From Ornithinimicrobium faecis (GTDB lineage Bacteria > Actinomycetota > Actinomycetes > Actinomycetales > Dermatophilaceae), in contig NZ_CP099489.1 in NCBI RefSeq assembly GCF_023923225.1, forward strand, positions 1,550,001-1,614,000: 64,000 nucleotides of DNA. Direction: 5' to 3'. Below the pieces are notes generated by a model that did not search any database, had not been told where the DNA came from, and saw nothing but the letters and a program-made list of their open reading frames with translations. Shown here piece by piece: positions 10,501 through 62,246 of the stretch (position 1 is the first letter of the stretch; each line of letters begins with the position of its first letter). The translations under genes were made by a program, and so were the position numbers.

Positions 10501-11569
10501 CGTGCCGGACCACCTGCGGGTCACCTTCGCCGTCGAGCGGACCGCCCGCCCGGGCGGCAAGCGCGGCCGCGGCCGCGCCCGGGTCGAGCTGTTGGGGGAG
10601 GGCAAGGACCTGGCCGCCCTGCAGGCGGAGCTCGCCCCGGCCGTGCGCACCACCATGTCCCGCGCCGCAGCCAGCATCGAGAAGACGGGACTGACCTCGT
10701 GGACCCAGGCACTCGGCATACTGCCGGAGACCTTTGAGCAACAGGTGGCCGGCAAGCCCGTCGTCGGCTATCCGGCGCTCGTCGACACCGGCGCGGCCGT
10801 CGACGTGCGAGTGCTGGGGACCGCCTCCGAGGCCGACCGGGCCACGCGGGTGGGGGTGCGGCGGCTGTTGCTGCTGGGCACGACCCCGCCGTGGAAGCGA
10901 CTGCTCGCCCTGCTGACCAACGCCCAGAAACTCTCGCTCGGACACAACCCGCACGGGTCGGTGCCGCTGCTGCTGCAGGACGCACTGGCCTGTGCCGTGG
11001 ACTCGGTCGTCGTCGAGATGCCGGGGGCTCGGGTGCGGACGCCGGAGGACTTCGACCACGCGCTGGCCATCGTCAAGCAGCAGGCGGTGCCGCGCGTGCT
11101 GACGATCGTGGAGAGCCTGGCCCCGATCCTGGACACGGCGCGCACGGTCTCGCTGGGGCTGCAGCGGCTGACCTCGCCGGCCGCCGCCGAGATGGCGACC
11201 GACCTGCGCACACAGCTGGACGCGCTGATCCGGCCGGGGTTCGTCGCGGACACCGGCTATCAGCGGCTGCCGCATCTGCGGCGCTATCTGGCGGGCATGG
11301 CCGAGCGCCTGGAGAAGGGCGCGCAGGACCTGGCCAAGGACCGCGACCGGATGGTCACCGTGCACACGGTGGAGGAGGAGCACGCCACGTTCCTCGGAAA
11401 CCTCCCGCCGCACCGTCGCGCGGACGAGGACGTCGTGGACATCGGTTGGCTGCTGCAGGAGCTGCGGGTCAGCCTGTTCGCCCAGCGCCTCGGCACGCCG
11501 CAGCCGGTGTCGCCCAAGCGGATCTACGCCGCGATGGACCGCGCGGAGGACGCCCCCGCAAAAAGATAA
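7571..11569 (+). CDS. hrpA: ATP-dependent RNA helicase HrpA (DEAH box, DUF3418 type)
   Basis: About 1332 aa, the usual size of bacterial HrpA. Helicase motifs appear in order: GETGSGKTTQ (P-loop, near 7843), TQPRRIAARSVA, the DEAH box in IIDEAHERS (near 8128), SATID, then STNVAETSLTVPGI and QRSGRCGR (motif VI). OB-fold and DUF3418 regions fill the C-terminal half. HrpA unwinds RNA and is linked to mRNA processing and rescue of stalled ribosomes. The start is uncertain: ATG 7571, ATG 7580 or GTG 7544 are in frame, none with a strong Shine-Dalgarno, and the first 60 residues are basic and disordered. The last codons GCA AAA AGA TAA lie inside a 32-bp repeat unit, so the C-terminus is repeat-derived. 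Tyr codons here are mostly TAT. Confidence 0.92.
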   Translation: MSPMPSEHATPPRRARDQQDPQGRRGRPQRKRSGQRRPRQDASPEPRAQRVASRRTMLPARINYPPELPVVERRDDIAAAIRDHQVVIVAGETGSGKTTQLPKICLELGRGLEGTIGHTQPRRIAARSVAERISEELGVELGTTVGYQVRFTDKSTKDTLVKVMTDGILLSELQRDRDLRKYDTLIIDEAHERSLNIDFILGYLKQLLPRRPDLKVIITSATIDVQRFSEHFAEADGTPAPVVEVTGRSYPVEVRFRPLTRPGPPGKDGVPRDVEIDQVTGVCEAVEELWTEDPGGGPADILVFCSGEREIRDVADALAGMNLPGTEVLPLYGRLSAAEQHRVFSRHSGRRIVVSTNVAETSLTVPGIRYVIDTGTARISRYSQRLKVQRLPIEAISQASANQRSGRCGRLADGIAIRLYSEEDFEARPEFTEPEILRTNLASVILSMTSLGLGEIARFPFLEPPDSRQIADGVRLLDELQAIDPDAPAHLPRKRLTPYGRAIVALPVDPRLARMVIEAERNGALREVSVIVAALSMQDPRERPADAQAQADQSHARFKHEDSDFLTLLNLWRYLKEQQKALSNSAFRRMCKREFLHYLRVREWQDLHTQLKQATKSLGLQANSNEPSADQVHQSLLAGLLSHVGLYDRDKREYAGARGARFVIQPGSVLHRKNPDWVMTAELVETTRLWARVNAPTDPAWVEQAAAHLVKRSYSEPRWSRSRASAVATERVTLYGVPLIADRAVAYGRIDPEVARDLFIRHGLVEGDWETRHDFFHANRRLIRELGELEARARRRDILVDDETLVDFYEARIPAEVVSGAHFDTWWKQARREDSQLLTFTEDLLVSDEASLVSDRDYPGTWRQGELELSVTYQFEPGSGSDGVTVHIPIEVLNRVRPDGFDWQVAGLREELATALVKALPKDIRRNFVPAPDHARRALAAIGDPRDEQETFVEALADELTARRVVPVSPADFDLTRVPDHLRVTFAVERTARPGGKRGRGRARVELLGEGKDLAALQAELAPAVRTTMSRAAASIEKTGLTSWTQALGILPETFEQQVAGKPVVGYPALVDTGAAVDVRVLGTASEADRATRVGVRRLLLLGTTPPWKRLLALLTNAQKLSLGHNPHGSVPLLLQDALACAVDSVVVEMPGARVRTPEDFDHALAIVKQQAVPRVLTIVESLAPILDTARTVSLGLQRLTSPAAAEMATDLRTQLDALIRPGFVADTGYQRLPHLRRYLAGMAERLEKGAQDLAKDRDRMVTVHTVEEEHATFLGNLPPHRRADEDVVDIGWLLQELRVSLFAQRLGTPQPVSPKRIYAAMDRAEDAPAKR

Positions 11570-11621
11570 AGGTCTCGCACGCCCGGCCAGGCTTTTCATA
11601 GAGGTCTCACACGCCGTCGTG
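11558..11621 (-). repeat. Two 32-bp repeat units at the hrpA 3' end (family 1)
   Basis: Two units, 11558-11589 and 11590-11621, share the core GGTCTCGCACGCC / GGTCTCACACGCC with cores starting at 11571 and 11603, exactly 32 bp apart. They belong to the same family as the arrays at 22784-22910 and 62141-62236. In hrpA sense the first unit begins GCAAAAAGATAAAGG and contains the hrpA TAA stop. Strand is given so that all units read CAGGCGTGCGAGACC. Confidence 0.85.
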
Positions 11622-11758
11622 CCGCGAATTCTTGGGGGCGATCGGATCTGTCCGCTGGACTCATGCGTGGCCCTGTGTCAGGAGTAGCTGGGAACCTGAG
11701 ACCGCTCTGTCCACAGGGCCGGCGACAGTCGTCGCCGATTTCGCCATGATTGATCGTC

Positions 11759-12256
11759 ATGAGTCCGGATCCACGAGACCGTCGGAAGCAGAGGAAGCCA
11801 CGGGCGCAGCAGCCGGTGGTTCGGACCAGACCGTCCCCCGGTGATGTGCATGAGATCGTCTACTTCAAGCGCCATCGAGCCGATGACAGGCATGGCGCGG
11901 AGCCTGGTCGTGACGCGTTGAACGGGTTCCCGCCGAAAGTGCGCGCAACGATGCGTGCTGCACTGATTGCGGTTGCTTCGGCGCCTCCCAGGCGATTCGC
12001 TGGTGGGGGCTATTGGGAGGCGATGAAGGGCGCCATGACCGGCTGGTTCGAACTTCGGGTAGATGGGCCACAGCGACATCATTACCGCTTGTTCTGCCTC
12101 CTCGACTATGAGGCTGTTGGTCACGACAAGCCGCTCCTTGTCATCGTGGACGGAAGAAGCAAGCCCTTCCGCACAACCTTTTCGAAAGCTGATTACGCCG
12201 AGGTGCGGGAGCTTGGCGCCGAATATCTCAAGCGCAACCCGCGCTCGCTGGCTTGA
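11759..12256 (+). CDS. RelE/HigB-like toxin (phage Gp49-like/DUF891 type)
   Basis: 165 aa from ATG 11759 (TTG 11750 is an in-frame alternative). After about 55 basic, disordered residues comes a RelE/HigB-style fold: VRATMRAALIAVA, then a GYWEAMKG...GWFELRV strand pair, HHYRLFCLLDY, and a C-terminal KPFRTTFSKADYAEVRELGAEYL stretch that matches the order of elements in Gp49-like HigB toxins (mRNA interferases acting at the ribosome). It faces an XRE antitoxin-like gene tail to tail across 3 bp. The long N-terminal extension is unusual for the family. Toxicity is inferred, not shown. Confidence 0.7.
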   Translation: MSPDPRDRRKQRKPRAQQPVVRTRPSPGDVHEIVYFKRHRADDRHGAEPGRDALNGFPPKVRATMRAALIAVASAPPRRFAGGGYWEAMKGAMTGWFELRVDGPQRHHYRLFCLLDYEAVGHDKPLLVIVDGRSKPFRTTFSKADYAEVRELGAEYLKRNPRSLA

Positions 12257-12259
12257 CTG

Positions 12260-12673
12260 CTAGGCGGGTGACCTCGTCGTGCGAGCACGCAACGTGTCGA
12301 GGTGCTCTGCCAACCCTCGCGGGTCGGCGGTGTGGCCCTCAAGGAGTGATGTCGTGATCTCGTGACGCTCAGCGTCGGAGATGGGCTCCACGGAAATGCG
12401 AAGCCCAAGTGCTGCCGCGACCTCCGCCACCGTGCCCAGGGTCGGATTGGCGTTGTCCGAGGAGAGGAGTCGGCGGATGGTTGCTGGCTCCTTGTGGATG
12501 GCACGCGCCAACTCGGCCTTGGACAGGCCAGCGGCCGCGCGCGCGTTGTCTAGAGCATTCACGACGTCGTCGATCGTCGCGATCCGCAGTGATTCGACGA
12601 CGTAATCACGCAGGAACGCTGGGTCTTGAAGATCGCGGGCCAGGTCATCCCAGAATGCGTTGCGTTGATTCAT
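12260..12673 (-). CDS. XRE-family antitoxin-like DNA-binding protein
   Basis: 137 aa. ATG 12673 is preceded by GAGGAGT. The centre holds a helix-turn-helix (AAGLSKAELARAIHKEPATIRRLL, residues about 44-67) followed by TLGTVAEVAAALGLRI, the pattern of HigA/XRE antitoxins. The N-terminal FLRDYVVESLRIATIDDVVNALDNA resembles helices that precede the HTH in such antitoxins. It probably neutralises the convergent RelE/HigB-like toxin and represses its own promoter. The tail-to-tail layout means the pair cannot form the usual single operon. An imperfect dyad (CGTA...TACG ends) sits about 25-45 bp upstream, at 12696-12713, and may be an operator. Confidence 0.75.
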   Translation of the reverse strand: MNQRNAFWDDLARDLQDPAFLRDYVVESLRIATIDDVVNALDNARAAAGLSKAELARAIHKEPATIRRLLSSDNANPTLGTVAEVAAALGLRISVEPISDAERHEITTSLLEGHTADPRGLAEHLDTLRARTTRSPA

Positions 12674-12752
12674 CGATATCACTCCTCGCTCGAAGCGTAA
12701 CATAAACGATACGCGGCGGGAGACGCGAGTGATTGCTTGTTCTGGTGCGACT

Positions 12753-12790
12753 GGTCCGCCCTCGTGCTGGACCATGCACGAGGGCGGACC
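12753..12790 (-). terminator. Terminator hairpin of the copper/disulfide cassette
   Basis: A perfect 14-bp stem, GGTCCGCCCTCGTG (12753-12766) with CACGAGGGCGGACC (12777-12790) and a 10-nt loop, sits 17 bp past the stop of the last gene of the minus-strand cassette. Confidence 0.8.
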
Positions 12791-12807
12791 GGCGTCGTGC
12801 GCGGCGG

Positions 12808-13662
12808 TCAGCCCTGCTGCTCGATGAACGCTGTCAGCGCCTCTGGATCCTCGGGGTTGCCCTCAAAGCGCTGGCCGTCGACCAGGACCGTGGGCGTGCC
12901 GAAGCGGCCGGAGGCCCCAGCCAACGACGGGTCGGACAGCGCCGCGTCGGTCGAGTCGCGGACCCACCCGTCGAACTCCTGGTCCAGGATGCAAGACCGC
13001 ACGTCTGAGGAGTCGGCGCCCGCGTCGGCAACTGCGTCGGACAGCGCTTCGACGGTGACGCTGCCCTGGGAAGCGGAGCCCTGCAGGTCGAACAGGGCCT
13101 GGTTGACGTCCAGGAAGGCGTCGGGCTGGTTCTCAGCGACACAGACCGCAGCGTTGGCCGCGTTGCTGGAAAAGTCCGTGCCCTGGCTGGCGTTGTCCAT
13201 CAGCGCCACCGGGTGCACCGCCAGCGAGACGTTGCCGGCCGCGAGCTCGTCGGACAGCATGGGCAGGTTGGCCTGCTCGAACGCCAGGCAGTGCGGGCAC
13301 TGATAGTCCAGATAGACGCTGACCTGCGGGACACCACCAGCGCTCGCGTTGGCGTCGTCGGCCGTCGCGGACGCGCCGTCCCCGCCAGCCTCATCGCCCG
13401 CTGCACCGGCACCGGGGTCGAGCACGATGCCGCCGTCGTCGGTCACGGTCGTCGGGGTCGCGCTCGAGGTCCCGCCCTGGTTGAGCGCGATCGCGGCCAC
13501 GACGGCGACCACCGCCAGGACGGCAACACCGATGAGGGAGCGGAAGACGACCTTCATCCGCTTCTCCTTGGCGACCGCCTCCTGCTGTTGCTGCCGGACC
13601 CGCTCCCGGGCCGACTGTTTCTGGGCGGACTGCTGTTGTGAGTTGTTCTTCTTCTGTGCCAT
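12808..13662 (-). CDS. Membrane-anchored DsbA-like thioredoxin-fold oxidoreductase
   Basis: 284 aa from ATG 13662, which follows AAGGAGA. The N-terminus is Gln/Lys-rich and cytoplasmic, followed by one transmembrane helix (about 40-62), an Ala/Gly/Asp-rich linker, and a DsbA-like thioredoxin fold with a C122-P-H-C125 active site (YQCPHC) and a cis-Pro region (FGTPTV). It should oxidise or isomerise disulfides in secreted proteins on the outer face of the membrane. A longer frame continues upstream but has no coding character and crosses the VKOR gene. It is the last of four same-strand genes; VKOR just upstream is its expected re-oxidant. Confidence 0.9.
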   Translation of the reverse strand: MAQKKNNSQQQSAQKQSARERVRQQQQEAVAKEKRMKVVFRSLIGVAVLAVVAVVAAIALNQGGTSSATPTTVTDDGGIVLDPGAGAAGDEAGGDGASATADDANASAGGVPQVSVYLDYQCPHCLAFEQANLPMLSDELAAGNVSLAVHPVALMDNASQGTDFSSNAANAAVCVAENQPDAFLDVNQALFDLQGSASQGSVTVEALSDAVADAGADSSDVRSCILDQEFDGWVRDSTDAALSDPSLAGASGRFGTPTVLVDGQRFEGNPEDPEALTAFIEQQG

Positions 13663-13691
13663 GGGGATTTCTCCTTGGGTATGCCGAGGTG

Positions 13692-14285
13692 TCAGAGATA
13701 GCGCAGGACGTCCAGTCGGAACTGGGCCAGGAGCGCGACGGCCAGGTAGCAGGCCAGGGTCAGCGGGACGAGCCAGGTGAGCAGGTAGGACCCCACCCGT
13801 CGGGCTCCGTCGCCGAACACCCCGGCGGCCGCGTTGCGCAGCGTCAGGGTGAGGAAGAGCGGGATCATGACCGCCCAGACGACCATGCACCAGGGGCACA
13901 GGGTGCCCAGGACATAGATGCTCTGGCCGATCAGCCAGACCACGAACGCCATGCCTGCGGTCACGCCCAGGTGGAACACCACCCAGAACCATCGGGCGAA
14001 GGTGGCTCCGGCCAGCAGCGCCACCCCCACCGCGACGGGCGCGACGAAGCCGGCGAGGCCGAGCAGCGGGTTGGGGAAGCCGAAGGCCGCCCCCTGGTCG
14101 GAGGCCAGGTTTGCCCCGCACTGCACGACGATGCTGAAGTCACAACCCAGCACCGCGTCGGCGTCATCGAGCGTCTCGAACTTGGCCAGCACCAGCTCGA
14201 ACGAGGCCCAGAGCCCGACCAGACCAGCCAGGATCAGGAAGGGCGCGAGCAGGCGACGGTCGCTGCGGCTGGTGCCCGGACTCAC
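13692..14285 (-). CDS. Vitamin K epoxide reductase (VKOR) family protein
   Basis: 197 aa, four or five transmembrane helices. It carries the two VKOR cysteine pairs: a loop pair in LGCDFSIVVQCGAN and the CPWC active site (C130/C133). Bacterial VKORs re-oxidise DsbA by passing electrons to a quinone. I place the start at GTG 14285 because it overlaps the upstream CopC stop as GTGA, a typical coupled junction; a longer frame would run Arg-rich into the CopC gene. The DsbA-like partner is 29 bp downstream. Confidence 0.9.
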   Translation of the reverse strand: MSPGTSRSDRRLLAPFLILAGLVGLWASFELVLAKFETLDDADAVLGCDFSIVVQCGANLASDQGAAFGFPNPLLGLAGFVAPVAVGVALLAGATFARWFWVVFHLGVTAGMAFVVWLIGQSIYVLGTLCPWCMVVWAVMIPLFLTLTLRNAAAGVFGDGARRVGSYLLTWLVPLTLACYLAVALLAQFRLDVLRYL

Positions 14286-15019
14286 TGGTCGGCGCCTCGC
14301 CGTCGGACCACGGCGAACACCCCCAGCGCAGCGAGGAGCACGACGAGGCCGATCACGATCGGGGTCCACGGCACACCGCCGTCGTCCGACTCGGTTTCAT
14401 TCGCGCCGCTGTCCTGCGCCGGCTCGCTCGCCGTGGTCGGTGCCGCCTCTGCGGTGGTCGGTGCCGCCTCTTCGGTCGTGGGCTCCGGCTGCTCCGTGGA
14501 CTCGGTCGCTTCGGAGCTCTCCTCCACGGTGGTCGGTGCTGAGTCCGCAGGTGCTGTGCTCGGGGTCGCGTCCGCGGGAGCCGGCTCGGTCGTCTCGGCG
14601 GCAGGGGCGTCAACCGTGAACGGGATGACCCCCGAGATGGGGTGACCGTCCGAGGAGGTGACGCGCCAGCTGACCTCGTAGGAGCCGCTGGGTAGGGCCT
14701 CCGCCAGCGGCACGGTGACGCCCGTGCCGTCAACGGCCAACTCGCCGGTCTCCCAGGTCGCGCCGTCGCTGTCGGTGACGACGGCGGCGGCGCCCAGCTC
14801 GAGCACCTCCGCAGAGAAGGTCAGCTGCACCTGCGTCAGTGGCTCGGTGAGGGTCTCGCCCTCGGCGGGACTGCTGTCGGTCAGGGTGTCGTGGGCGTGG
14901 GCCGCAGAGCCGGTGCCGATCAGCACCGTGCTCATGAGCAGGGCGGCCAGTGCGCGCCAGATGAGGTGAGGGGTGGAAGGGGCGGGGCGCGTCGCAGCGC
15001 GCCGGAAAGTGGTGTGCAT
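14282..15019 (-). CDS. CopC-domain copper-binding membrane-anchored protein
   Basis: 245 aa. A signal peptide is followed by mature HAHDTLTDSSPAEGETL, where the His after the cleavage site is the classic CopC copper ligand; a second landmark is the SSDGHPISG motif. After the beta-sandwich (to about residue 125) comes a long Thr/Glu/Pro/Ala linker, then one C-terminal transmembrane helix and an RRRGADQ tail. It likely binds copper on the cell surface. The gene sits between an upstream His-rich membrane protein and VKOR, overlapping the latter by 4 nt, so copper handling and disulfide formation are co-expressed here. Confidence 0.9.
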   Translation of the reverse strand: MHTTFRRAATRPAPSTPHLIWRALAALLMSTVLIGTGSAAHAHDTLTDSSPAEGETLTEPLTQVQLTFSAEVLELGAAAVVTDSDGATWETGELAVDGTGVTVPLAEALPSGSYEVSWRVTSSDGHPISGVIPFTVDAPAAETTEPAPADATPSTAPADSAPTTVEESSEATESTEQPEPTTEEAAPTTAEAAPTTASEPAQDSGANETESDDGGVPWTPIVIGLVVLLAALGVFAVVRRRGADQ

Positions 15020-15131
15020 GGGTTGTCCTCTGGGCAGGCTCCGCCCCGTGGAGGCAACAGGTCGTCACCTCGGGTGCGGAGACGTCGGAAGGCGCCGACG
15101 GTCCGGACACCAGGAGGCACCGGCCGCGACG

Positions 15132-15752
15132 CTAGGGAGTCGGAACTGCCAGAGGAGTTGGGGGTCCGCGGCGCGCGACGGAGGCCTGCACCAGCAGGCG
15201 TGTGGTGGGCACCCAGGCCCGCTCGTCGGCCAGCGGGGCCGACGGAGCGGTGGGGCGGGCAGGTTGGGGGACGACCGGCGACAGGAAGCGCCAGGTCAGG
15301 CGCTGCACAGAAGACCGGATCCGCGTGAGGATCAGCTCACCGTGGCGCAGGGCAGCCGCGGTCAGCACGGCCGCTGCCACGTGGGCCAGCACCATCCAGA
15401 CGGAGGTGGCGCCCGCGTCCACGGGCGTGCTCATCGCGTGGTGGGCGTGTGCCCCGGCGGAGCCAGCAGCGCCCAGGTCGGTGGCGCCGAGCATGAACAG
15501 GTTGTGGAAGAGTACCTGGCTCGCGCCGACCGACAGCAGCAAGCGGATCGAGGGCAGGCGCACCCCGGCGAGCAGGATGCACACGCCGAGGGCGAGCAGC
15601 AGGGGGACGACCAGGCCCGGCAGCGCCGGCATCGCGCCGCCGGCCATGAGGTGGAAGAGCAGGGCGATCGCGGTGGACACGCCGGCCGCAGAACTGCCCC
15701 GGATCAGTGCGCGACGCTGGGCTGGTGCCCAGGGGTTGCGCGCCTCGTCCAT
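15132..15752 (-). CDS. Polytopic membrane protein with His-rich loop, copper cassette
   Basis: 206 aa, about four or five hydrophobic segments (for example around 28-45, 48-65, 70-95 and 112-130). A loop reading GAHAHHAMST holds four His/Met ligands suited to Cu(I), and HNLFMLG precedes it. I do not recognise a named family. It is the first gene of the minus-strand set ending in CopC, VKOR and DsbA-like genes, with 112 bp before CopC. Metal transport or sensing in the copper cassette is an inference. Confidence 0.75.
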   Translation of the reverse strand: MDEARNPWAPAQRRALIRGSSAAGVSTAIALLFHLMAGGAMPALPGLVVPLLLALGVCILLAGVRLPSIRLLLSVGASQVLFHNLFMLGATDLGAAGSAGAHAHHAMSTPVDAGATSVWMVLAHVAAAVLTAAALRHGELILTRIRSSVQRLTWRFLSPVVPQPARPTAPSAPLADERAWVPTTRLLVQASVARRGPPTPLAVPTP

Positions 15753-15949
15753 GCCTCCATGCTACGTATGCCGCGCCCTGGCCTGGTCCTCGACCCTCAC
15801 CCGTGCGGTGGCTGGGGGCGTCCCGGTCATGCTTGGGATCGTGCGGAGGCGGGGCGGCGTGGGGCGAACGATGAGTTCCACGCAGGGGCTGGGTCACCAC
15901 TGGCAGGGGCAGCCGAACGACGGCGCCCACCACGAAGGAGACGATCCAG

Positions 15950-16732
15950 ATGACCACGCTCGGCAGCATCATGCTCGGCACCAGGGACCCGGACCGGTTG
16001 CACAGGTGGTACACCGCCGTGCTCCCACCCGACAGCGACGACGTCCAGGGCGACTACCGGATCCTGGGGTATGGCGGGTTCCATCTCTTCATCGATGCTC
16101 GCGACGATGTGCAGGAGAGCCACCCGGACCCGGCCAGGACCCTGCTCAACTTCGACGTCGATGACGCCCGGGCGGTGGTCGAGCGCATGGAGGCGGCGGG
16201 CACCACCTGGGTGGCTCCGTTGGATGACCGCGGCGGCAGCCTGTTCGCCACGGCGCAGGACCCGGACGGCAACTATGTCCAGGTCATCCAGCTCAGCCCG
16301 GAGGACCTGGCGCAGATGCAGGCCAACCAGACCGGGACGCGGCCACCGGTGGGCATGGTCGTCGGTGAGGTGTTCAGCGGCTTCTCGGTCGACGACCTCG
16401 CCGCTGCCCGCTCGTTCTATGCCGACACGCTCGGACTGCGGGTGGACACCGGACCCGAGGCGATGCCCCTGCTCTTCCTGGACGCCGGAGGTCGCAAGAT
16501 CCTCATCTATGAGAAGGGCGAGGCGCACGCCCCGGCCAATTACACCGTGCTCAACCTGCCCGTGCTGGATGTGGAGGCCGCTGTTCGCGACCTTGCCGAG
16601 CGCGGCGTGGAGTTCCTGCGCTATGACGGCATGGACCAGGACGACCTGGGCATCAGCCGCGGTGGCGGGCCACTGATCGCCTGGCTCAAGGACCCGGCCG
16701 GCAACGTGCTGTCGGTGATTGAGCGAGGGTGA
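15950..16732 (+). CDS. Two-domain VOC (glyoxalase/bleomycin-resistance fold) protein
   Basis: 260 aa made of two consecutive VOC modules of about 120 residues. The first (MLGTRDPDRLHRWYTAVLPP to DGNYVQVIQL) and second (GFSVDDLAAARSFYADTLGL to LKDPAGNVLSVIE) each show the beta-alpha-beta-beta-beta pattern. Members include glyoxalases, dioxygenases and antibiotic-binding proteins; the substrate is unknown. The ATG follows GAAGGAG. A GNAT acetyltransferase gene starts 5 bp downstream, so the two form an operon. Confidence 0.85.
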   Translation: MTTLGSIMLGTRDPDRLHRWYTAVLPPDSDDVQGDYRILGYGGFHLFIDARDDVQESHPDPARTLLNFDVDDARAVVERMEAAGTTWVAPLDDRGGSLFATAQDPDGNYVQVIQLSPEDLAQMQANQTGTRPPVGMVVGEVFSGFSVDDLAAARSFYADTLGLRVDTGPEAMPLLFLDAGGRKILIYEKGEAHAPANYTVLNLPVLDVEAAVRDLAERGVEFLRYDGMDQDDLGISRGGGPLIAWLKDPAGNVLSVIERG

Positions 16733-16736
16733 TCCG

Positions 16737-17219
16737 ATGACAGGTCCGAGCACGAGGCCGCTCACCGCGGCCGATGAGCACCTGCTGAGGGTCGCGACGC
16801 TCGGCAATCTCAACTGGGCCGAGGATCGCTTCACGATGCGGGACGTGACGGATCGTCCGGAGTTCGCCCATTACACGCGTCTGGACCAGGGCCGCGGGGA
16901 CCTCGGATTCGTCGCCGAGGACGGCGACCGGGCTGTCGGCGTGGTCTGGGCACTCTTCCTGCCGAGTGACGACGGGGGCTTCGGCTTCGTGGACTCGCTG
17001 ACTCCAGAGTTGAGCCTGTGGGTCCACGCCGACGACCGGGGCCGCGGCGTGGGCAGGCACCTGCTGCAGTCCCTGAAGACTGAGGCCGCACGCCGCGGGA
17101 TCTCCGGCATCAGCCTGTCGGTGGAGAGGGGGAACGTCGCCAGGCACCTCTACGAGAGCGAGGGCTTCCAGGCGGTCCCGGGCAGGGAATCGGACGGGGT
17201 GCTGGTCTGGACCCCGTGA
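16737..17219 (+). CDS. GNAT-family N-acetyltransferase
   Basis: 160 aa. The acetyl-CoA motif A is visible as LWVHADDRGRGVGRHLLQSL (Q/RxxGxG/A type), with the later ARHLYESEGF matching motif B. It transfers an acetyl group from acetyl-CoA to an unknown amine. I take ATG 16737, 5 bp after the VOC stop; a TTG at 16719 is in frame but overlaps the VOC gene. It converges on the anti-sigma-like gene across only 26 bp. Confidence 0.87.
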   Translation: MTGPSTRPLTAADEHLLRVATLGNLNWAEDRFTMRDVTDRPEFAHYTRLDQGRGDLGFVAEDGDRAVGVVWALFLPSDDGGFGFVDSLTPELSLWVHADDRGRGVGRHLLQSLKTEAARRGISGISLSVERGNVARHLYESEGFQAVPGRESDGVLVWTP

Positions 17220-17245
17220 TCACTGCGGCCCCCCCTGATCAGCGG

Positions 17246-18175
17246 TCAGGGCGCCATGGTCGCGGTGGCGGTGGCAGTGGCCGTGGACACGTCGCCCTCA
17301 CCGCGGGTGGCACCGCCGATGACAAACTCCCCGATCACCGTCTCGCCGTCGGACTCATAGACCGGGACGCTGAACGTCTGGCCCGCGCGCTCCTCCTGCA
17401 TCTTCAGCGCGTGCTCGGGGGAGGTCGGCTCGGGGCCAACCGCGGCGTTCATCTCCGCCACGGAGGCGTAGCCGGTCTGACCGTTCGTGGCGATCGCGGA
17501 GATCAGGTCCGGCTCGCCGTTTTCGTTTTGGACGCCATAGGTCTGGCCCTTGGCGTTGACGCCCCACTCGGTCACCTCCGTGCTGACATAGGCGGTGGTG
17601 ACTTGCCAGCGCGCACCGTCGGCGGCCCGGATCTCGATCGTGTCCGTGCCCTCGGCCAGGTCGATGACATAGGGCGCCACCACGAAGTCCTCCTCGGTGA
17701 CGCTCTCCTCACGCGCATCGCTGGCGTCACAGATCATGCTGGCACCATCGGGATAGGTGAACTCACCCGCACTCAGACAGTCCAGCACCATGGCCACACC
17801 AGTGGCGCCCGTCGGCTTCTCGCCGAGCTCGACGGTGGTGGTTCCGGCCTTCGTCACGGTGATGGGCTCGCTGAGGTGGGTCACGCGCGTCCCGCCGGGC
17901 ATCACGTTCGCGTCGTTGGTGACCGGCTCTGAGGGATCGGCGGTCGCAACGACGCCTCCGCCACCAGGCCCGACCTCGGCGGTCTCGGGCAACAGTTGCG
18001 TGGCAAGCGGGACGGCGAGAGCAAACACCGCGACTCCCACGACCCCACCGACGACACTGTGGCGCCGCCGGGTGCGACGCACGCGCGCGCCGATCTGCTC
18101 GAACCGGTCCACCGGATCCATCAGGTCCGGGGGCAGGTCGCGCAACTGCTCGATGATGCGGTCGGTGTCCTTCAC
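17246..18175 (-). CDS. Anti-sigma-like single-pass membrane protein
   Basis: 309 aa. The N-terminal 45 residues are cytoplasmic and helical (DTDRIIEQLRDLPPDLMDPVDRFEQI), followed by one transmembrane helix (about 41-62) and a Ser/Thr-rich extracellular domain of about 240 residues with no family I recognise. The start ATG overlaps the stop of the ECF sigma gene by 4 nt (ATGA), which is how anti-sigma factors are usually coupled to their sigma. There is no zinc-binding HxxxCxxC (ZAS) motif, so if it is an anti-sigma factor it is of a non-ZAS type. Confidence 0.7.
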   Translation of the reverse strand: MKDTDRIIEQLRDLPPDLMDPVDRFEQIGARVRRTRRRHSVVGGVVGVAVFALAVPLATQLLPETAEVGPGGGGVVATADPSEPVTNDANVMPGGTRVTHLSEPITVTKAGTTTVELGEKPTGATGVAMVLDCLSAGEFTYPDGASMICDASDAREESVTEEDFVVAPYVIDLAEGTDTIEIRAADGARWQVTTAYVSTEVTEWGVNAKGQTYGVQNENGEPDLISAIATNGQTGYASVAEMNAAVGPEPTSPEHALKMQEERAGQTFSVPVYESDGETVIGEFVIGGATRGEGDVSTATATATATMAP

Positions 18176-18696
18176 AGCTCCTCCTCCACAAGCACGTCCT
18201 GGCCGATGACCTCGCGCAGCCGGGCCAGGCCCTTGGCGGTCTGGCTCTTCACCGTCCCCGCGGAGCAGCCCATGATCTCGGCCACCGCAGCCACGGGCAG
18301 GTCATCGAAATAGCGCAGCACCACGGCCTGCCGCTGGCGCAGCGGCAGCTGGGCCAGTGCCTCAGCCAGCACCAGGCGGTCGGTGACCGATCCGCTCGGG
18401 TCAGCGTCGGCATACAGATCGGTCTGTATGCCGTCACTCGCCGAGGCGAGATCCGTCGGCTTCTCGCGGGTCCAGAACCGCGCCTTCCAACTGGCGTTGG
18501 TGCGCACCATCACCTGGCGGACATAGGCCTCGGGGTGGCCCTGACTGACCCGTGACCAGTGCGGCCACGTGCGCGCCAGAGCGGTCTGCAGGAGGTCCTC
18601 GGCGCCCGCCGCGTCACCGGTCAGCATCCAGGCGGTGCGCAGCAGGGACGGTGACCGTCCGACCACGAACTCCCGGAACCCGTCCGGCTCACGCAT
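18172..18696 (-). CDS. ECF RNA polymerase sigma factor, SigE (TIGR02983-like) family
   Basis: 174 aa, with sigma-2 (FVVGRSPSLLRTAWMLTGD, AEDLLQTALARTW) and sigma-4 (LPLRQRQAVVLRYFDDLPVAAVAEIMGCSAGTVKSQ) regions. The sequence style matches the actinobacterial 'SigE family' of ECF factors, which is distinct from Mycobacterium SigE. It directs RNA polymerase to stress promoters and is probably held by the membrane protein encoded directly downstream. The ATG follows an AAGGAGG. Target promoters are unknown. Confidence 0.9.
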   Translation of the reverse strand: MREPDGFREFVVGRSPSLLRTAWMLTGDAAGAEDLLQTALARTWPHWSRVSQGHPEAYVRQVMVRTNASWKARFWTREKPTDLASASDGIQTDLYADADPSGSVTDRLVLAEALAQLPLRQRQAVVLRYFDDLPVAAVAEIMGCSAGTVKSQTAKGLARLREVIGQDVLVEEEL

Positions 18697-18753
18697 GTGG
18701 GCCTCCTTGCCTCATGCCCATCTAACCGGCTGGGTCCCGCGATCGGTTGCCCG

Positions 18754-19560: not shown

Positions 19561-19657
19561 GGCGCCCAGCCTAGGGTGGGAATCCTGAGGCCGGGTTGCT
19601 CGTTGGACCCTGCGAGCACCCGTGGCGCGCCCGCGCCCCGCACGAACGGAGCCGACC

Positions 19658-20065
19658 ATGGCACACGCTGCACGCCGACCCCTGCGTTGGGGCGCCCTGA
19701 TGGGTGTTGCCTCCGCGATCCGATCCGCCAGCCGTCCGGGAGCGCCGGGTGTGGGGGAGCGCCTGGCCGCCCTCCCGCGGATGGTGCGCGCGATCATGAC
19801 CAGGAAGTACAGCGGCGTCGACGGCTCCAAACTGCTGATGATGCTGGCCGCGGTCGGTTATGTCGTCAGCCCGATCGACCTGATGCCCGAGGCCATGCTG
19901 TTCATCGCCGGCCTCGGCGACGACGCCCTCGTCGTCGGCTGGCTCGCGGTGACGATCATCAACGCGACTGACGACTTCCTCGACTGGGAGCGCACCGGCG
20001 ACTTCATCCCCGGTCAGGTCTACGACACGACCGGCCAGCAGCCCCCGCACTACGACGTCATCTGA
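19658..20065 (+). CDS. DUF1232 (YkvA-type) membrane protein
   Basis: 135 aa. The DUF1232 core is visible as KYSGVDGSKLLMMLAAVGYVVSPIDLMPEAMLFIAGLGDDALVV, including the family's SPIDLxPE motif. Family members are small membrane proteins of unknown function. ATG 19658 is favoured because of GGAG upstream; GTG 19622 is an alternative. Two tandem 27-bp repeats begin 3 nt after the stop. Confidence 0.85.
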   Translation: MAHAARRPLRWGALMGVASAIRSASRPGAPGVGERLAALPRMVRAIMTRKYSGVDGSKLLMMLAAVGYVVSPIDLMPEAMLFIAGLGDDALVVGWLAVTIINATDDFLDWERTGDFIPGQVYDTTGQQPPHYDVI

Positions 20066-20067
20066 CG

Positions 20068-20121
20068 GCCACGCCGCGGCGACACTGGAGCACTGCCACG
20101 CCGCAGCGACAACGGAGCACT
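20068..20121 (+). repeat. Two tandem 27-bp repeats after the DUF1232 gene
   Basis: GCCACGCCGC... units at 20068-20094 and 20095-20121 differ at about three positions. They follow the stop codon immediately and precede a terminator hairpin, echoing the 3'-end arrays elsewhere in the window but with another unit and period. Confidence 0.7.
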
Positions 20122-20129
20122 GACACGGG

Positions 20130-21846: not shown

Positions 21847-21851
21847 GGTGA

Positions 21852-22723: not shown

Positions 22724-22745
22724 GCCACACCACGCTCGACGCACA

Positions 22746-55320: not shown

Positions 55321-55556
55321 CCGACCGAGCGCATGGGGGCCTGGTCCTATGACCGACCGAGCGCATGGTGTGGCGAGATTTACCCCGACCGAGCGCGTGA
55401 GGACCTGGTCTTTTGGCCGACCGAGCGCACGGGGGACGAGTATGCCGAGGCGCGCCTCGGCATACAGCCGCCGGTCGTGCGCTCGGTGGCTCGTTATCTC
55501 AGGCGCCCACGCGCTCGGTGGTGGGATTTCTCAGGCGCTCATGCGCTCGGTCGATT
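55321..55556. repeat. Inverted array of 32-bp repeats around a 26-bp palindrome (family 2)
   Basis: Four forward units start with the core GACCGAGCGC at 55323, 55355, 55387 and 55419; three inverted units show GCGCTCGGT at 55479, 55511 and 55543. All adjacent cores are exactly 32 bp apart. A perfect 26-bp palindrome at 55440-55465 (half-site GTATGCCGAGGCG) sits between the sets. The TAA stop of the minus-strand transglutaminase gene (55555-55557) overlaps the outer edge of the inverted set. Inverted units start CAGGCG, like family 1 units, and the last unit ends in ATTATTTGCG, parallel to the S9 array. Confidence 0.92.
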
Positions 55557-57885
55557 ATTTGCGGCGGAACCAGCTGGCGACGACGGAGCGGATGTAGTGC
55601 ACGCCGCTGCGGGGGAAGAGTTTGGCGCTGGCGCGGATGTTCCACGGCAGGTCGGATGACACGGAGTCCAGGACGTGGACGACGTCCTTGTGCATGTCCG
55701 CGTCGTCGGAGCCCTCGGTCTGGTGTGCGGGGGCATAGCGGGCGCGCTCGAGCGTCGCGGTCGCCCGCCCCAGCGACTCACCGGCGCGCCGGTCCAGGTG
55801 TGCCTTGTCCTGATAGTGCTCGCCCATCTCGCGCGGGCTCTTGTCCGGTGGCGGGTTGATGCCATAGTCCTCGAGCGAGCGTTTGAGCAGCTCCCACTGG
55901 CCCTCGATCCGCTCCTGAGGCGTGTCGGCGTTGCGCAGCACGGCCTCGCGGTGTCGCCGCCCGGCGATCGCGATGACGGCCATGATCAGGCCGATCACGA
56001 GCACGACGGCCAGGGCGCGCAGCAGGATCGGCGCGGCCGAGCGCAGGGCGTCGAGCGTGCTGTCCCACCAGCTGTCCTCGTCACCCGCGCCGCCCGGGTC
56101 CTGCGTCGGTTCGCCGGTCGGCGTGGCCTGGCTCTCCTGGGTCGGGTCGGCCTCGGCGGTGCCCTGGTTGAGCTGGGTGTAGGCCGGTGGCTGGCCCGAC
56201 TGGATCCCCGGGGTCGGCTCGAAGCGGACCCAGCCCATGCCGTCGATCCACAGCTCGGGCCAGGTGTGCGCGCGGGAGGCGACGATCGTCCAGGTGCCGT
56301 TGGGCTCGCGCTCGCCGGGCAGGAAGCCCAGCGCCATCCGGGCGGGAATGCCCTGGGAGCGGGCCATCATCACCATCGAGGTGGCGAACTGCACGCAATA
56401 GCCCTGCTGCGTCGCCAGGAAGTGCGCGATGGGCGAGGAGTCCTGCCCCTCCCCGGGGAGCAGGTTGAGGTCGTAGGTGTAGATGCCGCTGCGGAAGTGT
56501 TGCTGCAGCAGTTGGCCGATGACGAGGTCGTTGGTCTCGTCGCCGATGACCTGCTCGGTGAGCTCGGTGTAGGCCTCCACCCCGGTGGGCGAGGGCTCGA
56601 GGTAGGGAGCGAACTCGTTGGGGTCGGCCTCGGCCTCGCCGATGTCGTCGGGCAGGTCGCTGACCCCGCCGGGGGCGAGGCGCATGAAGGTCACGTCATA
56701 GCTGTCGACGGGCTCCTCGAGGCGCACCGCGGACGTCTCGGTGTCCCAGCGCATGCCAGTGTCGGCGGTGACCTCGGCCAGCGGGCTCGGCACGGCCAGG
56801 GACGGTGCCTTCACCCCGTTGCTGAGCACGGACAGCTCGGAGAACTCGCGGCGCACCGACTCATCCACCCCGGGCAGCGCATTGCCCGGGTGCGGGCTCA
56901 GCGAACCCGCGACCGGCTCGCTCAGGTCATAGTCCGGCTCCGCCCAGGTCGTGCCGTCAAACTCGTGGACGGCCGTGACACGCAGCGGGTCCTGCAGCAA
57001 CTGCTGGGTGCGATAGGTGATGACGGGGTCGTCGGACTGGTTGTGCAGGTCGGCAGTCACGTCCATCGTCTCGGTGAAGCTCACCGAGCCACCACCGCCG
57101 CCCACCGAGCGACCGTCGGCATTGCGCGCCAGGCCCTCGGTGAAGAAGGTCGGGGGCAGGTGGGGCAGGGCCGAGGCCGCGACGAGGGCGCTGAGCACGG
57201 TGACGACGGCCAGGATCCGGGCCAGCCGCCGGTGCCCGGTGGGGCCGAAGGCCACGTCGTGGGAGCCCACGCTCTCGCGCCGGTCCGCCGAGCTCCACCC
57301 CGTCACCAGGCGGCTGCCCTGCTGGGCGACCATCAGCAGCCACCCCAGGGCGGCGGCGGCAAAAAACCACGGCTGCATCGCGTGGCCATTGTTGGACACA
57401 GAGACCAGGAAGGCGGCGGCAAGCGGTATGCCGGCAGTCGCCGGAGCGCGCCCCGTCACCCCGATCGAGTCGACCGAGATCGCGGTCAGGGTCAGGACCA
57501 CCACGATGAGGAACTCAACCCCGTCGTTGGTGGGTGCCGGTGCCGCAAAGGTGCGCAGGGTGGTGCCGGCCTCGCGCAGCAGCTCGGTGGTGCGATCCAG
57601 GGTGTCCGACCAGGGGATGATGCCGTAATTGAGGGTGTCGCGCAGGTAGTGGAACAGGATGGCCACGGTCGCCACGAGAGCCTGGGAGAGCACCACGAGC
57701 GTGGGGTCTGCGTCGAGGCTGCGCAGGAGCGAGCCGACGACCGCGACCAGCAGGACCATCAGGATGGCCGGGCCGATCCAGGTCCCCTCGCGGAGCAGCT
57801 CGGTCAGCGGCCAGGCGACGGCCAGCGTGGCGAAGGCTGCCAGCCCGGCCTCGGGCCACATGCCCCGGTCCAGGTTGAACCTCAT
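55555..57885 (-). CDS. TgpA-like transglutaminase-domain membrane protein
   Basis: 776 aa. About six transmembrane helices fill the first 230 residues (DUF3488 region), followed by an extracytoplasmic transglutaminase-like domain with C497 (QQGYCVQF), H540 (ASRAHTWPELW) and the later Asp region (GWVRFEPTPG). After a Gln/Pro/Glu linker come one more helix and a cytoplasmic DUF4129-like tail that ends FRRK. The ATG overlaps the DUF58 gene stop by 4 nt. The moxR-DUF58-tgpA trio is a conserved actinobacterial operon; the Cys-His pair suggests catalysis on secreted or wall-bound proteins. The TAA stop lies at the edge of the family-2 repeat array. Confidence 0.9.
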   Translation of the reverse strand: MRFNLDRGMWPEAGLAAFATLAVAWPLTELLREGTWIGPAILMVLLVAVVGSLLRSLDADPTLVVLSQALVATVAILFHYLRDTLNYGIIPWSDTLDRTTELLREAGTTLRTFAAPAPTNDGVEFLIVVVLTLTAISVDSIGVTGRAPATAGIPLAAAFLVSVSNNGHAMQPWFFAAAALGWLLMVAQQGSRLVTGWSSADRRESVGSHDVAFGPTGHRRLARILAVVTVLSALVAASALPHLPPTFFTEGLARNADGRSVGGGGGSVSFTETMDVTADLHNQSDDPVITYRTQQLLQDPLRVTAVHEFDGTTWAEPDYDLSEPVAGSLSPHPGNALPGVDESVRREFSELSVLSNGVKAPSLAVPSPLAEVTADTGMRWDTETSAVRLEEPVDSYDVTFMRLAPGGVSDLPDDIGEAEADPNEFAPYLEPSPTGVEAYTELTEQVIGDETNDLVIGQLLQQHFRSGIYTYDLNLLPGEGQDSSPIAHFLATQQGYCVQFATSMVMMARSQGIPARMALGFLPGEREPNGTWTIVASRAHTWPELWIDGMGWVRFEPTPGIQSGQPPAYTQLNQGTAEADPTQESQATPTGEPTQDPGGAGDEDSWWDSTLDALRSAAPILLRALAVVLVIGLIMAVIAIAGRRHREAVLRNADTPQERIEGQWELLKRSLEDYGINPPPDKSPREMGEHYQDKAHLDRRAGESLGRATATLERARYAPAHQTEGSDDADMHKDVVHVLDSVSSDLPWNIRASAKLFPRSGVHYIRSVVASWFRRK

Positions 57886-59141
57886 GTCAGGGCCCCCGAA
57901 CGGCGGGTGGCGCGCAGCCGCTCCCACGAGGCGGGCACCGAGTCCTGCGGACCGACCAGCACGGTCTGCCAGCCGGCCTGGGTGAGCACGCCCGTGTGGC
58001 GCTGGGCCGTGGCGAGGTCCTTGCGGCTCTCGGTGCCGGGCGTGAACGCCTCGGGGTCGAGCACGAGCGCCATCGCGGCCGAGCCCGGCTCACGGACGGC
58101 GGCCAGGTGCGCCAGCTCGGCCTCGTCGTGGGCGACGACGACGCTGATCAGCAGCACGCCACCGGAGGTGAAGCTGTGGGCTGCTGCTGCCAGCGCCTCC
58201 ATGCTCGAGTCCTGGTCGGGCTGGGCGCGAGCCAGGGTGCTGAGCGCCTGGTCGAGCCCGATCTGCACCCCGGCCGAGCCGTCCTCGACGGTGCGGTGGG
58301 TGAGCAGGTGGATGACGAAGCCGTCCTTGATCAGGTGCCGCGCCAGGGAGGCGACGGCGCTGACGGCCCACTCGTATGACGCTTGGTAACCGCTGCCCGG
58401 AAAGGCACCCGCCCGGCTGTCGAGCAGGAGCACCGCGCGGCGGCGCGCGGGCCGGTCCTCCTGGCGGACCATGATCTCGCCGCGGTGTGCCGTCGCGGGC
58501 CAGTGCACGCGGCGCAGCTCGTCGCCGTCGCGATACTGCCGGATCGACACGTCGTCCTCGCCGTGCAGGGAGACCATCTGCGGCAGCTCGCCCTCGGTGC
58601 CGCGCCCCTGGCCAGCGACCCGGCGGGAACCGAGGTCCCAGATGTGGGGGAGCACCAGCAGCTCAACGGTTGCGGGCAGCTGCAGCGCGACGTGGGTCAG
58701 CCCGAACGGGTCGCGGCGGCGCAGCGTGATCGGCCCGACGGGGAAGGCCCCGCGGTGTCGGCTGCGCACGGTGTATCGCAGCTTGCGGCCCTCGCCGGAG
58801 ACCATCCGCGGGAGCAGGAAGCGGGGTCGGTCGCCGAGGGCGTAGTCGAACTGCTCCTCGGCGAGGAAGAGGGGGGTCGGGCGCGTACCGACGTTGGTGA
58901 ACTGGACCTCGACGAGGCCCTGCTGGTCGGGGTGCAGGCGCGACGGGGTGACCACGCGGGTGACGCGCAGGCTCGGCGGGGTGGGGCGGACCAGCAGCAG
59001 CGCGAGCAGCGGCAGGATCACCAGCAGCAGACCGATGCGGGTCACATCGCGATAGCCCAGCACGACACCGGCCACGGCCACGATGGCCCCGAGGGCCAGG
59101 AACATCTGGCCCCGACTCGTCAGCACCCCCGGGGCACGCAC
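57882..59141 (-). CDS. DUF58 family membrane protein
   Basis: 419 aa. Two transmembrane helices at about 13-55 are followed by a beta region (VTPSRLHPDQQGLVEVQFTN) and the DUF58 motif VSIRQYRDGDELRRVHWPATAHRGEIMVRQ near 205-235. A vWA-like fold (AVLLLDSRAG) follows. DUF58 proteins pair with MoxR ATPases, which probably act as chaperones for them. The start is GTG 59141, just after the moxR stop at 59154; the stop overlaps the transglutaminase ATG. Confidence 0.9.
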   Translation of the reverse strand: MRAPGVLTSRGQMFLALGAIVAVAGVVLGYRDVTRIGLLLVILPLLALLLVRPTPPSLRVTRVVTPSRLHPDQQGLVEVQFTNVGTRPTPLFLAEEQFDYALGDRPRFLLPRMVSGEGRKLRYTVRSRHRGAFPVGPITLRRRDPFGLTHVALQLPATVELLVLPHIWDLGSRRVAGQGRGTEGELPQMVSLHGEDDVSIRQYRDGDELRRVHWPATAHRGEIMVRQEDRPARRRAVLLLDSRAGAFPGSGYQASYEWAVSAVASLARHLIKDGFVIHLLTHRTVEDGSAGVQIGLDQALSTLARAQPDQDSSMEALAAAAHSFTSGGVLLISVVVAHDEAELAHLAAVREPGSAAMALVLDPEAFTPGTESRKDLATAQRHTGVLTQAGWQTVLVGPQDSVPASWERLRATRRSGALT

Positions 59142-60443: not shown

Positions 60444-60875
60444 GTGCTGTTGCTCGGCACGTACTCACCCCGCCTGGACGACAAGGGCCGGATGTTCCTG
60501 CCCGCCAAGTTCCGCGACAAGCTGGCCGGCGGTCTGGTGATGACCCGCGGTCAGGAGCGCTGCCTCTATGTCTATCCGCTGGCCGAGTTCGAGAAGGTCG
60601 CCGAGCAGTGGCAGAACGGACCGACCACCAACGCCGGCGTGCGGGCCTACCAGCGACTTCTCCTGTCCGGAGCCTCCGACGAGATCCCCGACAAGCAGGG
60701 CCGGGTGACCGTCCCGGCGATCCTGCGCGACTATGCCGGGCTCACCCATGAGTGCACCGTGATCGGCTCCGGCAACCGCATCGAGATCTGGGACTCCGCG
60801 GCCTGGGAGGCCTACGTCACCGAGCACGAGGACGGCTTCGCCAACCAGAGCGAGGAGGTGGTTCCGGGCCTGTAA
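60444..60875 (+). CDS. mraZ: Transcriptional regulator MraZ
   Basis: 143 aa from GTG 60444, reading MLLLGTYSPRLDDKGRMFLP; GGAAGGGG lies 8-15 bp upstream, and the family normally starts with this motif. GTG 60435 is an in-frame alternative. Two SpoVT/AbrB-like halves are visible (SPRLDDKGRMFLPAKFRDKL and SDEIPDKQGRVTVPAILRDYA), each with the DxxGR motif. MraZ is a ring-forming DNA-binding protein that represses its own operon through GTGG repeats. First gene of mraZ-rsmH-ftsL-ftsI. Confidence 0.96.
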   Translation: MLLLGTYSPRLDDKGRMFLPAKFRDKLAGGLVMTRGQERCLYVYPLAEFEKVAEQWQNGPTTNAGVRAYQRLLLSGASDEIPDKQGRVTVPAILRDYAGLTHECTVIGSGNRIEIWDSAAWEAYVTEHEDGFANQSEEVVPGL

Positions 60876-61193
60876 GCGACCCGCTCCACTTCGCCCCACC
60901 CGAGCACTCCACTTCGCCCCACCCACCGACCACCGACCCTGACGCTGACCCTGACACCCGGCCCCCAGCCGCACCACCCGCCCCCGACCCGACTTCCCCC
61001 GGGCCGGGTGCACCACGAGCAGGATCCCGACTCCACTTCCCCGGAGCCGGGCCACCCACTCGGATGGCGCGGAAGGGGACCAGGTCCCAGGGCCCAAGGA
61101 AACACAGCACGACATTGGCGCCACAGGTGCTGGGACCGCACAACCAGCCACACGGCATACGGAATGAAAACCACGACAGGAAGGAGAGCGACG
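60876..61193 (+). other. mraZ-rsmH intergenic leader with CCAC repeats
   Basis: 318 bp without a convincing gene. CTCCACTTCGCCCCACCC occurs twice at the start; the CCAC motifs at 60886, 60896, 60909 and 60919 form two pairs of 10-bp pitch, which on the other strand are GTGG pairs like the MraZ operator. A third partial match is near 61030. CAGCAC ... GTGCTG and other small stems follow. CGGCATACGGAATGAAAACC at 61153-61172 resembles the sigA leader motif. Rfam describes an 'mraW RNA' motif upstream of this gene in some actinobacteria; I cannot test for it here. Confidence 0.55.
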
Positions 61194-62246
61194 ATGCAGG
61201 ACCGGCCCACCGCCGAGCGGCACACCCCCGTGCTGCGCGACCGCATCGTCGAGCTCCTCGCACCCGCCCTCCACGCAGAGGGAGCGGTCTTCGTCGACGG
61301 GACCCTCGGCATGGGCGGACACACCGAGGCAGTGCTGACCGCCTGCCCGGGGGCCATCGCGGTCGGGATCGACCGGGACACCGAGGCGCTGACCCTGGCC
61401 GGGGAGCGCCTCGCCCCGTTCGGCGACCGGTTCGTGCCGGTGCACGCGGTCTATGACGAGATCCCGGAGGCGCTGGCGCAGCGCGGCATCGCCGAGGCGC
61501 AGGCCATCCTGTTTGATCTGGGCGTCTCCTCGCTGCAGCTGGACGAGGCCGAGCGGGGCTTCGCCTATCGGATGGACGCCCCGCTGGACATGCGGATGGA
61601 CCAGACGACCGGCCTGACGGCCGCGGACGTCCTCAACGACTATGGCGTGCGGGAGCTCGAGGTGATCCTGCGCGACTTTGGCGAGGAACGCTTTGCCCGC
61701 AAGATCGCCCGCGCCCTCGTCGCCGAGCGCGACAAGGAGCCCTTTGCCAACTCGGCCCGGCTCGTGGAGCTGCTGCAGCGGGTCGTGCCGGCCGCCTCGC
61801 AGCGCTCGGGTGGCCACCCGGCCAAGCGCACCTTCCAGGCACTGCGCATCGAGGTCAACGCCGAGCTGTCGGTGTGGTCCGACGCGCTGCCGGCCGCGCT
61901 CTCGCTGCTGCCGGTGGGCGGGCGGATCGCGGTGCTGTCCTATCACTCGCTGGAGGACCGGATCACCAAGCGCGGCCTGGCCGTGGGCGCCACCAGCTCG
62001 GCCCCGCCGGACCTGCCCGTCGAGCTGCCGGAGCACAAGCCGTGGCTCAAGCTGCTCACTCGCGGCGCCGAGATCGCGGACGAGGCCGAGCGCGCCGACA
62101 ACCCGCGGGCCACCTCGGTGCGGCTCCGGGCGGCCGAGCGCACCCGTGCGAAACCTCTATCAAAAGCCGGGCACGACGTACGAAACCGCTATCAAAATGC
62201 GGGGAAGCCGAGCGAAACCACTACGAAAATGGGGGAGACCCGATGA
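61194..62246 (+). CDS. rsmH: 16S rRNA (cytosine-N4)-methyltransferase RsmH (MraW)
   Basis: 350 aa. ATG 61194 follows GGAAGGAGA. Family motifs: [15 protein letters not shown], the SAM motif [44 protein letters not shown], and [12 protein letters not shown]. It methylates C1402 of 16S rRNA on N4. The last 32 or so residues ([19 protein letters not shown]...) are encoded by three 32-bp repeat units, so each unit is read in a different frame; this tail is not part of the family fold. The TGA overlaps the ftsL ATG by 4 nt. Confidence 0.96.
62141..62236 (+). repeat. Three 32-bp repeat units inside the rsmH 3' end (family 1)
   Basis: Units at about 62141-62172, 62173-62204 and 62205-62236 share the core GTGCGAAACC...ATCAAAA with cores 'GAAACC' at 62150, 62182 and 62214, exactly 32 bp apart. 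They are the same family as at 22784-22910. Here they lie within the coding sequence, in the opposite orientation relative to the host gene, and the end of the last unit supplies the GGGGGAG ahead of ftsL. Confidence 0.88.

Follow-up and report, generated by a model that had tools for sequence, protein, structure and literature searches.

REP/BIME elements with RAYT are short extragenic repeats that often lie near gene 3′ ends and have a species-specific consensus, and MIRUs grow in tandem. In bacteria, the best-known case of a dispersed non-coding repeat that changes in concert at fixed orthologous sites is that of DNA uptake sequences (DUS), of which a 12-mer form exists. The element considered here, family A, is a tandem repeat with a 32-bp pitch that came to notice in one 64-kb stretch of DNA (the window), namely bases 1,550,001–1,614,000 of the 4.62-Mb single-contig genome of Ornithinimicrobium faecis (G000). 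It is a dispersed family restricted to one clade within Ornithinimicrobium, with a fixed pitch, a polarity towards coding sequence, sites shared between species and species dialects at these sites.

MIRUs appear to be mobile and to insert at start codons with a spacing of −4 nt (PMC12548453), and RPE are short repeats inserted in frame within unrelated genes (PMC10969869). DUS display a genome-wide species dialect around a constant core, permissive positions and inverted pairs (PMC3630211), and at BldC operators an asymmetric oligomer binds direct repeats that are arranged head-to-tail and vary in number (PMC5859096). MIRU, RPE, DUS, REP and MITE each have some features in common with family A, and each fails at least one test. 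The initial annotation of the window knew of no described family of this kind, and none was found in the open-access literature on Ornithinimicrobium, nor in the broader literature among the matches listed.

Unit structure and helical pitch

Nine units at three window sites had been reported with a 32-bp pitch, and all were located, the pitch being made up of a 25-bp unit and 7 bp. They form a minus-strand array of two units at 11556–11612 (11556–11580, 11588–11612), a plus-strand array of four at 22789–22909 (22789–22813, 22821–22845, 22853–22877, 22885–22909) and a plus-strand array of three at 62146–62234 (62146–62170, 62178–62202, 62210–62234). The 10-mer core alone occurs in the window at chance level (18 matches with at most one mismatch, 15.9 expected), whereas the 25-bp consensus with at most three mismatches has 118 copies across G000 and its reversed control none; the above-chance signal therefore lies in the 25-bp consensus and the pitch, not in the core. 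Searching the genome and its relatives with the consensus, as had been proposed, confirmed a dispersed family and kept its link to 3′ ends.

Loci of G000 were gathered with patterns of its own dialect and of a second family, family B, among the matches listed (100 of 118 places); for five relatives, 20 stretches each (100 in total) were picked among the matches listed in pattern searches. Units were called by a weight matrix for each species. In the stretches from these six species, 492 units in 202 arrays were mapped, of which G000 contributes 77 arrays with 196–200 units, one to five per array (scans of 309 kb around matches). In array orientation, the unit reads GTRCGARACC-NCTAYS-AAAATGCGG followed by 7 bp, the last four of which are partly constrained too. 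Inner units terminate in AAAATGCGG, while the last unit more often has a AAAATTGGG or AAAATGGG ending in the relatives and frequently a TTTTTGCGG ending in G000. The stop-proximal unit of many G000 arrays, including that at 11556–11580, often carries CCGCAAAAAGATAAAGG in gene sense in place of CCGCATTTTSATAGAGG, a switched A/T tract.

Of 290 neighbouring pairs from the six species, 252 have a pitch of 32 bp, 28 of 31 bp, three of 33 bp and seven of another length; 32 or 31 bp approximates three helical turns (3 × 10.5). In 75 pairs whose units and spacers differ, the pitch is 32 bp in 68 and 31 bp in four, and a pitch held in dissimilar pairs does not come from recent duplication alone. Two units are the commonest array size in all six species. 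In arrays of at least three units, adjacent spacers are 0.69–0.96 identical versus 0.48–0.59 for random spacers (72 pairs), which points to local duplication as the source of extra units. Moreover, in four of the six species columns 1–10 of the unit recur imperfectly as a direct repeat in columns 12–21 (identity 0.40–0.54), an offset of 11 being the best of offsets 5–15.

Distribution among genomes

A degenerate pattern spanning the dialects matched seven of 31 genomes of the genus (15–76 exact matches each; controls 0), and gave no match in the other 23 genus genomes besides G131, which has one, nor in 155 other genomes of the family. The G131 match (L285, contig C17) is by eye a two-unit array with the 32-bp pitch; the assembly is a draft in about 130 contigs, and contamination or transfer could account for the match. 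In an order-wide sample of 396 genomes, only G000 and one single-unit match (G509) were recovered; plasmids searched with the family B query and phages searched with the family A query gave no match, and the exact pattern was absent from the named genome contigs, a set that may leave out records near the window's genome. One of the seven carriers, G128, is known as such by pattern count only and is neither among the six species with mapped arrays nor in the tree, which holds the 26 of 31 genus genomes that yielded both proteins. The six carriers in this tree constitute one clade (support 96/97).

Position and polarity relative to genes

Gene edges were obtained from our own ORF (open reading frame) scorer without annotation, stops being more certain than starts, and 200 of the 202 arrays were classified, the other two being too close to the locus end. 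Of the classified arrays, 113 end where an opposing gene stops, 43 precede the start of a co-directional gene, 20 sense and two antisense arrays are inside ORFs, eight have a gene on the other side only, and 14 have none. Of 178 intergenic arrays assigned to the nearest gene, 118 face an opposing stop with their A-tract end and 60 a start. The distance from this end to the stop has a median of −1 bp (102/118 within −14 to +10), and that to the start a median of 16.5 bp (37/60 within −20 to +30, 12/60 within −14 to +10, 15/60 beyond 50). For the other array end, the medians are 51 bp to the stop (15/115 within −14 to +10) and 109 bp to the start (3/62 within −20 to +30). The array is thus polar, with its A-tract end towards coding sequence.

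The association with gene 3′ ends claimed initially stands for the 102 of 200 arrays that end within −14 to +10 bp of an opposing stop, compared with 1.2% of random points and 8.7% of random intergenic points, but its being the rule is not supported, as 60 intergenic arrays face a start and 22 arrays lie in ORFs. It had further been proposed that the element was retained because it supplies a stop codon. Of the 113 stop-facing arrays, 34 contain the entire stop codon in their last unit (22 of 51 in G000), and 74 of 75 G000 arrays have an antisense stop in one frame or more. In G121, however, 18 of 24 arrays have no antisense stop in any frame, yet nine of 11 stop-facing arrays touch the stop codon at exactly −1, which weakens this explanation.

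The 22 in-ORF arrays, which include a weak single-unit match at G000 1708551 that may be due to chance, occupy linkers and loops and use more than one reading frame. They are found in a GlgB-like N-terminal linker, a MaoC-like linker, a lipoprotein linker, YggS and a GMC-like oxidoreductase, all names assigned by eye from sequence. Inside the glgB-like ORF of G107 and G121, arrays occur in both orientations, which argues against a strict terminator. Along the G000 contig, array positions are uniform (Kolmogorov–Smirnov p 0.68). Replichore polarity of the KOPS or Chi type was rejected, with 25 plus and 17 minus arrays in the first contig half and 17 plus and 18 minus in the second (Fisher p 0.37, assuming that the contig starts near the origin).

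Shared sites and species dialects

Among the relatives' arrays, 45 of 125 adjoin the orthologue of a G000 array gene, a count made without a shuffled control. Three sites carry arrays in the same register in several species, each with its own dialect: the MaoC-like linker site carries them in five species; the rsmH/ftsL site carries them in seven, G111 being down to one decayed unit; and the YggS loop has an insert at the same place in G000, G130, G111 and, in decayed form, G110, the alignment having no usable G128 row. In 62 orthologous site pairs from 15 species comparisons, which are not mutually independent, 26 show zero shift relative to the coding sequence where 25 shifts were allowed. 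The boundary with the coding sequence at aligned sites is often identical, and the units follow the dialect of each species. The flanks outside the arrays are barely alignable, with a best-of-seven-shift identity of 0.35–0.46 in 13 of 15 comparisons and 0.53 and 0.58 in the other two.

In most comparisons, units at orthologous sites are as alike as those at randomly paired sites (0.663 versus 0.644 for G000–G110, 0.487 versus 0.511 for G000–G121). Identity above random was seen for G107–G121 (none of 200 random sets as high), G110–G111 (6/200) and the single G107–G110 pair (7/200). The dialects are most evident in columns 4–7, which read CGAG or CGAA in 195 of 200 G000 units and CCGA or CCAA in 52 of 54 G121 units. 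One dialect prevails genome-wide around a constant core, clearly in G000, G107, G121 and G110 and more loosely in G111 and G130. The tree joins G000 and G121 as sisters (97/93) despite their different dialects, and G107 has that of G121; these relations imply multiple dialect switches or sorting from a mixed ancestor. We read this as probable concerted evolution of dispersed sites.

A possible binding array or selfish repeat

The idea placed first, already among those suggested initially and still tentative, is that family A constitutes a binding array for a co-evolving DNA-binding factor, and it rests on position, pitch and dialect taken together. The commonest form of the element would be two head-to-tail asymmetric sites of about 25–29 bp, set 32 bp or three helical turns apart, and a putative sequence-specific factor would bind each array cooperatively on one face of the helix. 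As the specificity of the factor drifts, sites throughout the genome may follow, giving rise to species dialects at conserved positions. The arrays do not resemble a regulon; they mark the edges of many genes with no evident relation and loops in which proteins tolerate them, with the A-tract end towards coding sequence. Nucleoid organisation, a gene-edge boundary and recognition of own DNA are candidate genome-wide roles. BldC operators differ in being AATTXXXX(C) sites with 9 bp per subunit in a regulon, compared with the 32-bp pitch, the 11-bp half-site offset and the unrelated genes here. The bolder proposal is more doubtful: a new genome-wide DNA-recognition system might exist, in which a clade-specific asymmetric factor has co-evolved with dozens of two-site arrays at ORF edges (77 arrays in G000), the dialect at common sites differs between the sisters G000 and G121, and family B, equal in pitch but with a core of its own, runs in parallel.

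Several observations weigh against a binding array. Many array sites are not common to all carriers: the S9 site has arrays in G000, G121, G107 and G130 and none was seen in G110 and G111, while the YggS insert is missing from G121, G107 and five aligned non-carriers. Dialects are mixed in G111 (28 CGAA and 22 CAAA among 55 units in columns 4–7) and G130 (41 CAAA and 12 CGAA among 64), and so is the 3′ half of the unit in G110, G111 and G130. The purity of the G000 dialect arises partly from the choice of G000-dialect search patterns; it is backed independently by the degenerate pattern and by a G121-type pattern (two matches, three mismatches). The 11-bp half-site repeat was not found in G107 and G121 at offsets 5–15. 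Uniformity of the units could also stem from copying, given the likeness of spacers, and binding alone would not predict that arrays touch the stop codon. DNA-level binding, the putative factor and any genome-wide role are inferred.

A short insertion element that is selfish, as MIRU or RPE are, is possible and nearly as likely as a binding array. Such an element would have entered at the base of the clade, inserted where it does least harm, namely at the edges of genes and in tolerant loops, grown by tandem duplication and been homogenised by copying between copies, a process that would yield many of the same features. The single clade formed by the carriers, the local duplication of units and the in-frame presence within conserved folds, such as the YggS loop and the GMC-like oxidoreductase, all agree with this, as does the lack of arrays at the same sites in near outgroups by eye (none seen at rsmH/ftsL in G114, nor at the S9 gene in G114 and G126). 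In addition, G000 arrays at most 2 kb apart are in excess, with 12 pairs of −/+ order and one of +/− against 2.5 pairs expected. On the other hand, the sites outlast a divergence that has nearly erased their flanks, and the pitch is held in dissimilar units. Family A consists of direct repeats without the terminal inverted repeats of a MITE, and the Y1 transposase (PF01797) was found in none of the 31 genus genomes, while five of 14 control genomes were positive; other insertion enzymes were not sought. Two related candidates were tried and rejected. REP/RAYT is at odds with the missing Y1_Tnp and with the lack of a hairpin-forming palindrome in family A, in which REP/BIME differ from it; a mobile cassette is at odds with the genes between −/+ pairs, which look unrelated, one being transposase-like by eye. 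At one such pair (G000:C1 408886−/409474+), a 348-bp gene separates the arms in G000, and the arms abut in G121.

MIRUs resemble family A as short dispersed actinobacterial repeats joined to ORF edges. They differ in that family A has 32-bp units, mostly antisense to a stop in intergenic arrays, with dialects that vary by species at shared sites. Insertion at start codons with overlap coupling is not what is seen, as 118 of 178 arrays face a stop and 60 a start, and the ATGA start/stop overlap occurs at the rsmH/ftsL array only. RPE are about 150 bp long and palindromic and encode one conserved peptide, whereas family A comprises direct repeats in more than one frame with 22 of 200 arrays in ORFs.

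Uptake tags and 3′-end signals as unlikely readings

It is unlikely that the arrays serve as tags of self-recognition in DNA uptake like the DUS of Neisseriaceae, kept uniform through the exchange of tagged DNA. The likeness is real, as genome-uniform species dialects around a constant core are found here, and permissive positions in and between genes and inverted pairs also resemble what is reported for DUS (PMC3630211). However, copies are about an order of magnitude fewer, 118 with at most three mismatches versus 1543 to more than 3400 (PMC3630211). DUS have about tenfold or more copies and are single short words without fixed 32-bp pairs, and family A stays below a thousand copies. DUS are single 10-mers rather than pairs with a 32-bp pitch, and the polarity towards ORFs is left unaccounted for. 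On uptake signals in actinobacteria, the literature yielded one review among the matches listed.

A transcription 3′-end signal just past the stop codon, whether terminator, protein roadblock or RNA stability element, is very improbable, since the position of 102 of 118 stop-facing arrays and mildly negative fold z-scores in G107 and G121 (−0.60 to −1.59, lowest antisense in G121) are offset by the other four species, which show no RNA structure signal (mean fold z −0.15 to +0.80), by the 60 intergenic arrays that face starts and by the two orientations inside ORFs. Rfam gave no match at the gathering score in the 64-kb window, and the RNA element suggested at first was set aside on the fold z-scores and Rfam. 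The terminator was likewise rejected, as none of four intrinsic terminators (GC hairpin and U-run) in 11450–23100 is at the hrpA or S9 array.

In these arrays, concerted change is coupled to a constant helical pitch and to an orientation strictly towards coding sequence, pointing either to a new class of DNA-binding system or to a selfish repeat homogenised across genomes by some route. With several dialects spread over seven sequenced carrier species, the question is open to direct test, and the C-termini and loops of proteins are already being reshaped by the arrays.

Window sites and the second family

The hrpA-type helicase gene (DUF3418; 7544–11569, plus strand; PF11898, PF07717, PF00271) is faced by the A-tract end of the first array, and the prolyl oligopeptidase family (S9) gene (22899–25835, minus strand; PF00326) has its stop towards the A-tract end of the second. 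As noted earlier, both TAA stops, at 11567–11569 and at the complement of 22899–22901, are inside the stop-proximal unit. The third site differs in that its array points the same way as rsmH and ftsL and is coding sequence. It is inside the rsmH ORF (MraW methylase family; 61194–62246, plus strand; PF01795) and encodes residues 318–347 of RsmH, a protein of 350 residues in which the Pfam domain extends to residue 316. Its A-tract end is 8 bp ahead of the start of a small ORF in the ftsL position (62243–62737, plus strand), which is named from position only, has an ATG overlapping the TGA of rsmH and gave no Pfam match. The closest named relatives of this RsmH are those of O. sp. F0845 and O. 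cavernae (84–85% identity). In several non-carrier Ornithinimicrobium (e.g. L115, L119, L126), RsmH has by eye another low-complexity TPDQ tail where the array-encoded tail sits. After the S9 gene of G110 (L222), where there is no 32-bp array, a different short tandem repeat (CACGACTTCGGGCC) is followed by a hairpin-like sequence, also by eye.

A further family with the 32-bp pitch, missing from the initial list and also ending at a stop codon, is present at 55324–55551. This composite consists of two outward-facing family B arms, a minus-strand array of four GCGCTCGGT cores with the 32-bp pitch (55324–55428) and a plus-strand array of three (55479–55551), around a perfect 26-bp palindrome (55440–55465). 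The last core is 3 bp from the stop of a transglutaminase-like gene (TgpA_N, Transglut_core; 55555–57927, minus strand; PF11992, PF01841), which the array faces. Matches to family B (GCGCTCGGT-type, 32-bp pitch) number 81 in G000, 18 in G121, four in G107 and one in G128, with 17 over 16 other genomes; the control gave eight in the 186 genomes. Two outward-facing arrays are combined at five B loci, four of which have a common central palindrome, one with a mismatch; unlike family A, these composites have inverted arms. Elsewhere in the window, 43087–48411 contains diverged copies of duplicated DNA, in blocks spaced by about 3.2 kb and 4.9 kb (44938/48157, 45075/48294, 43087/48017).

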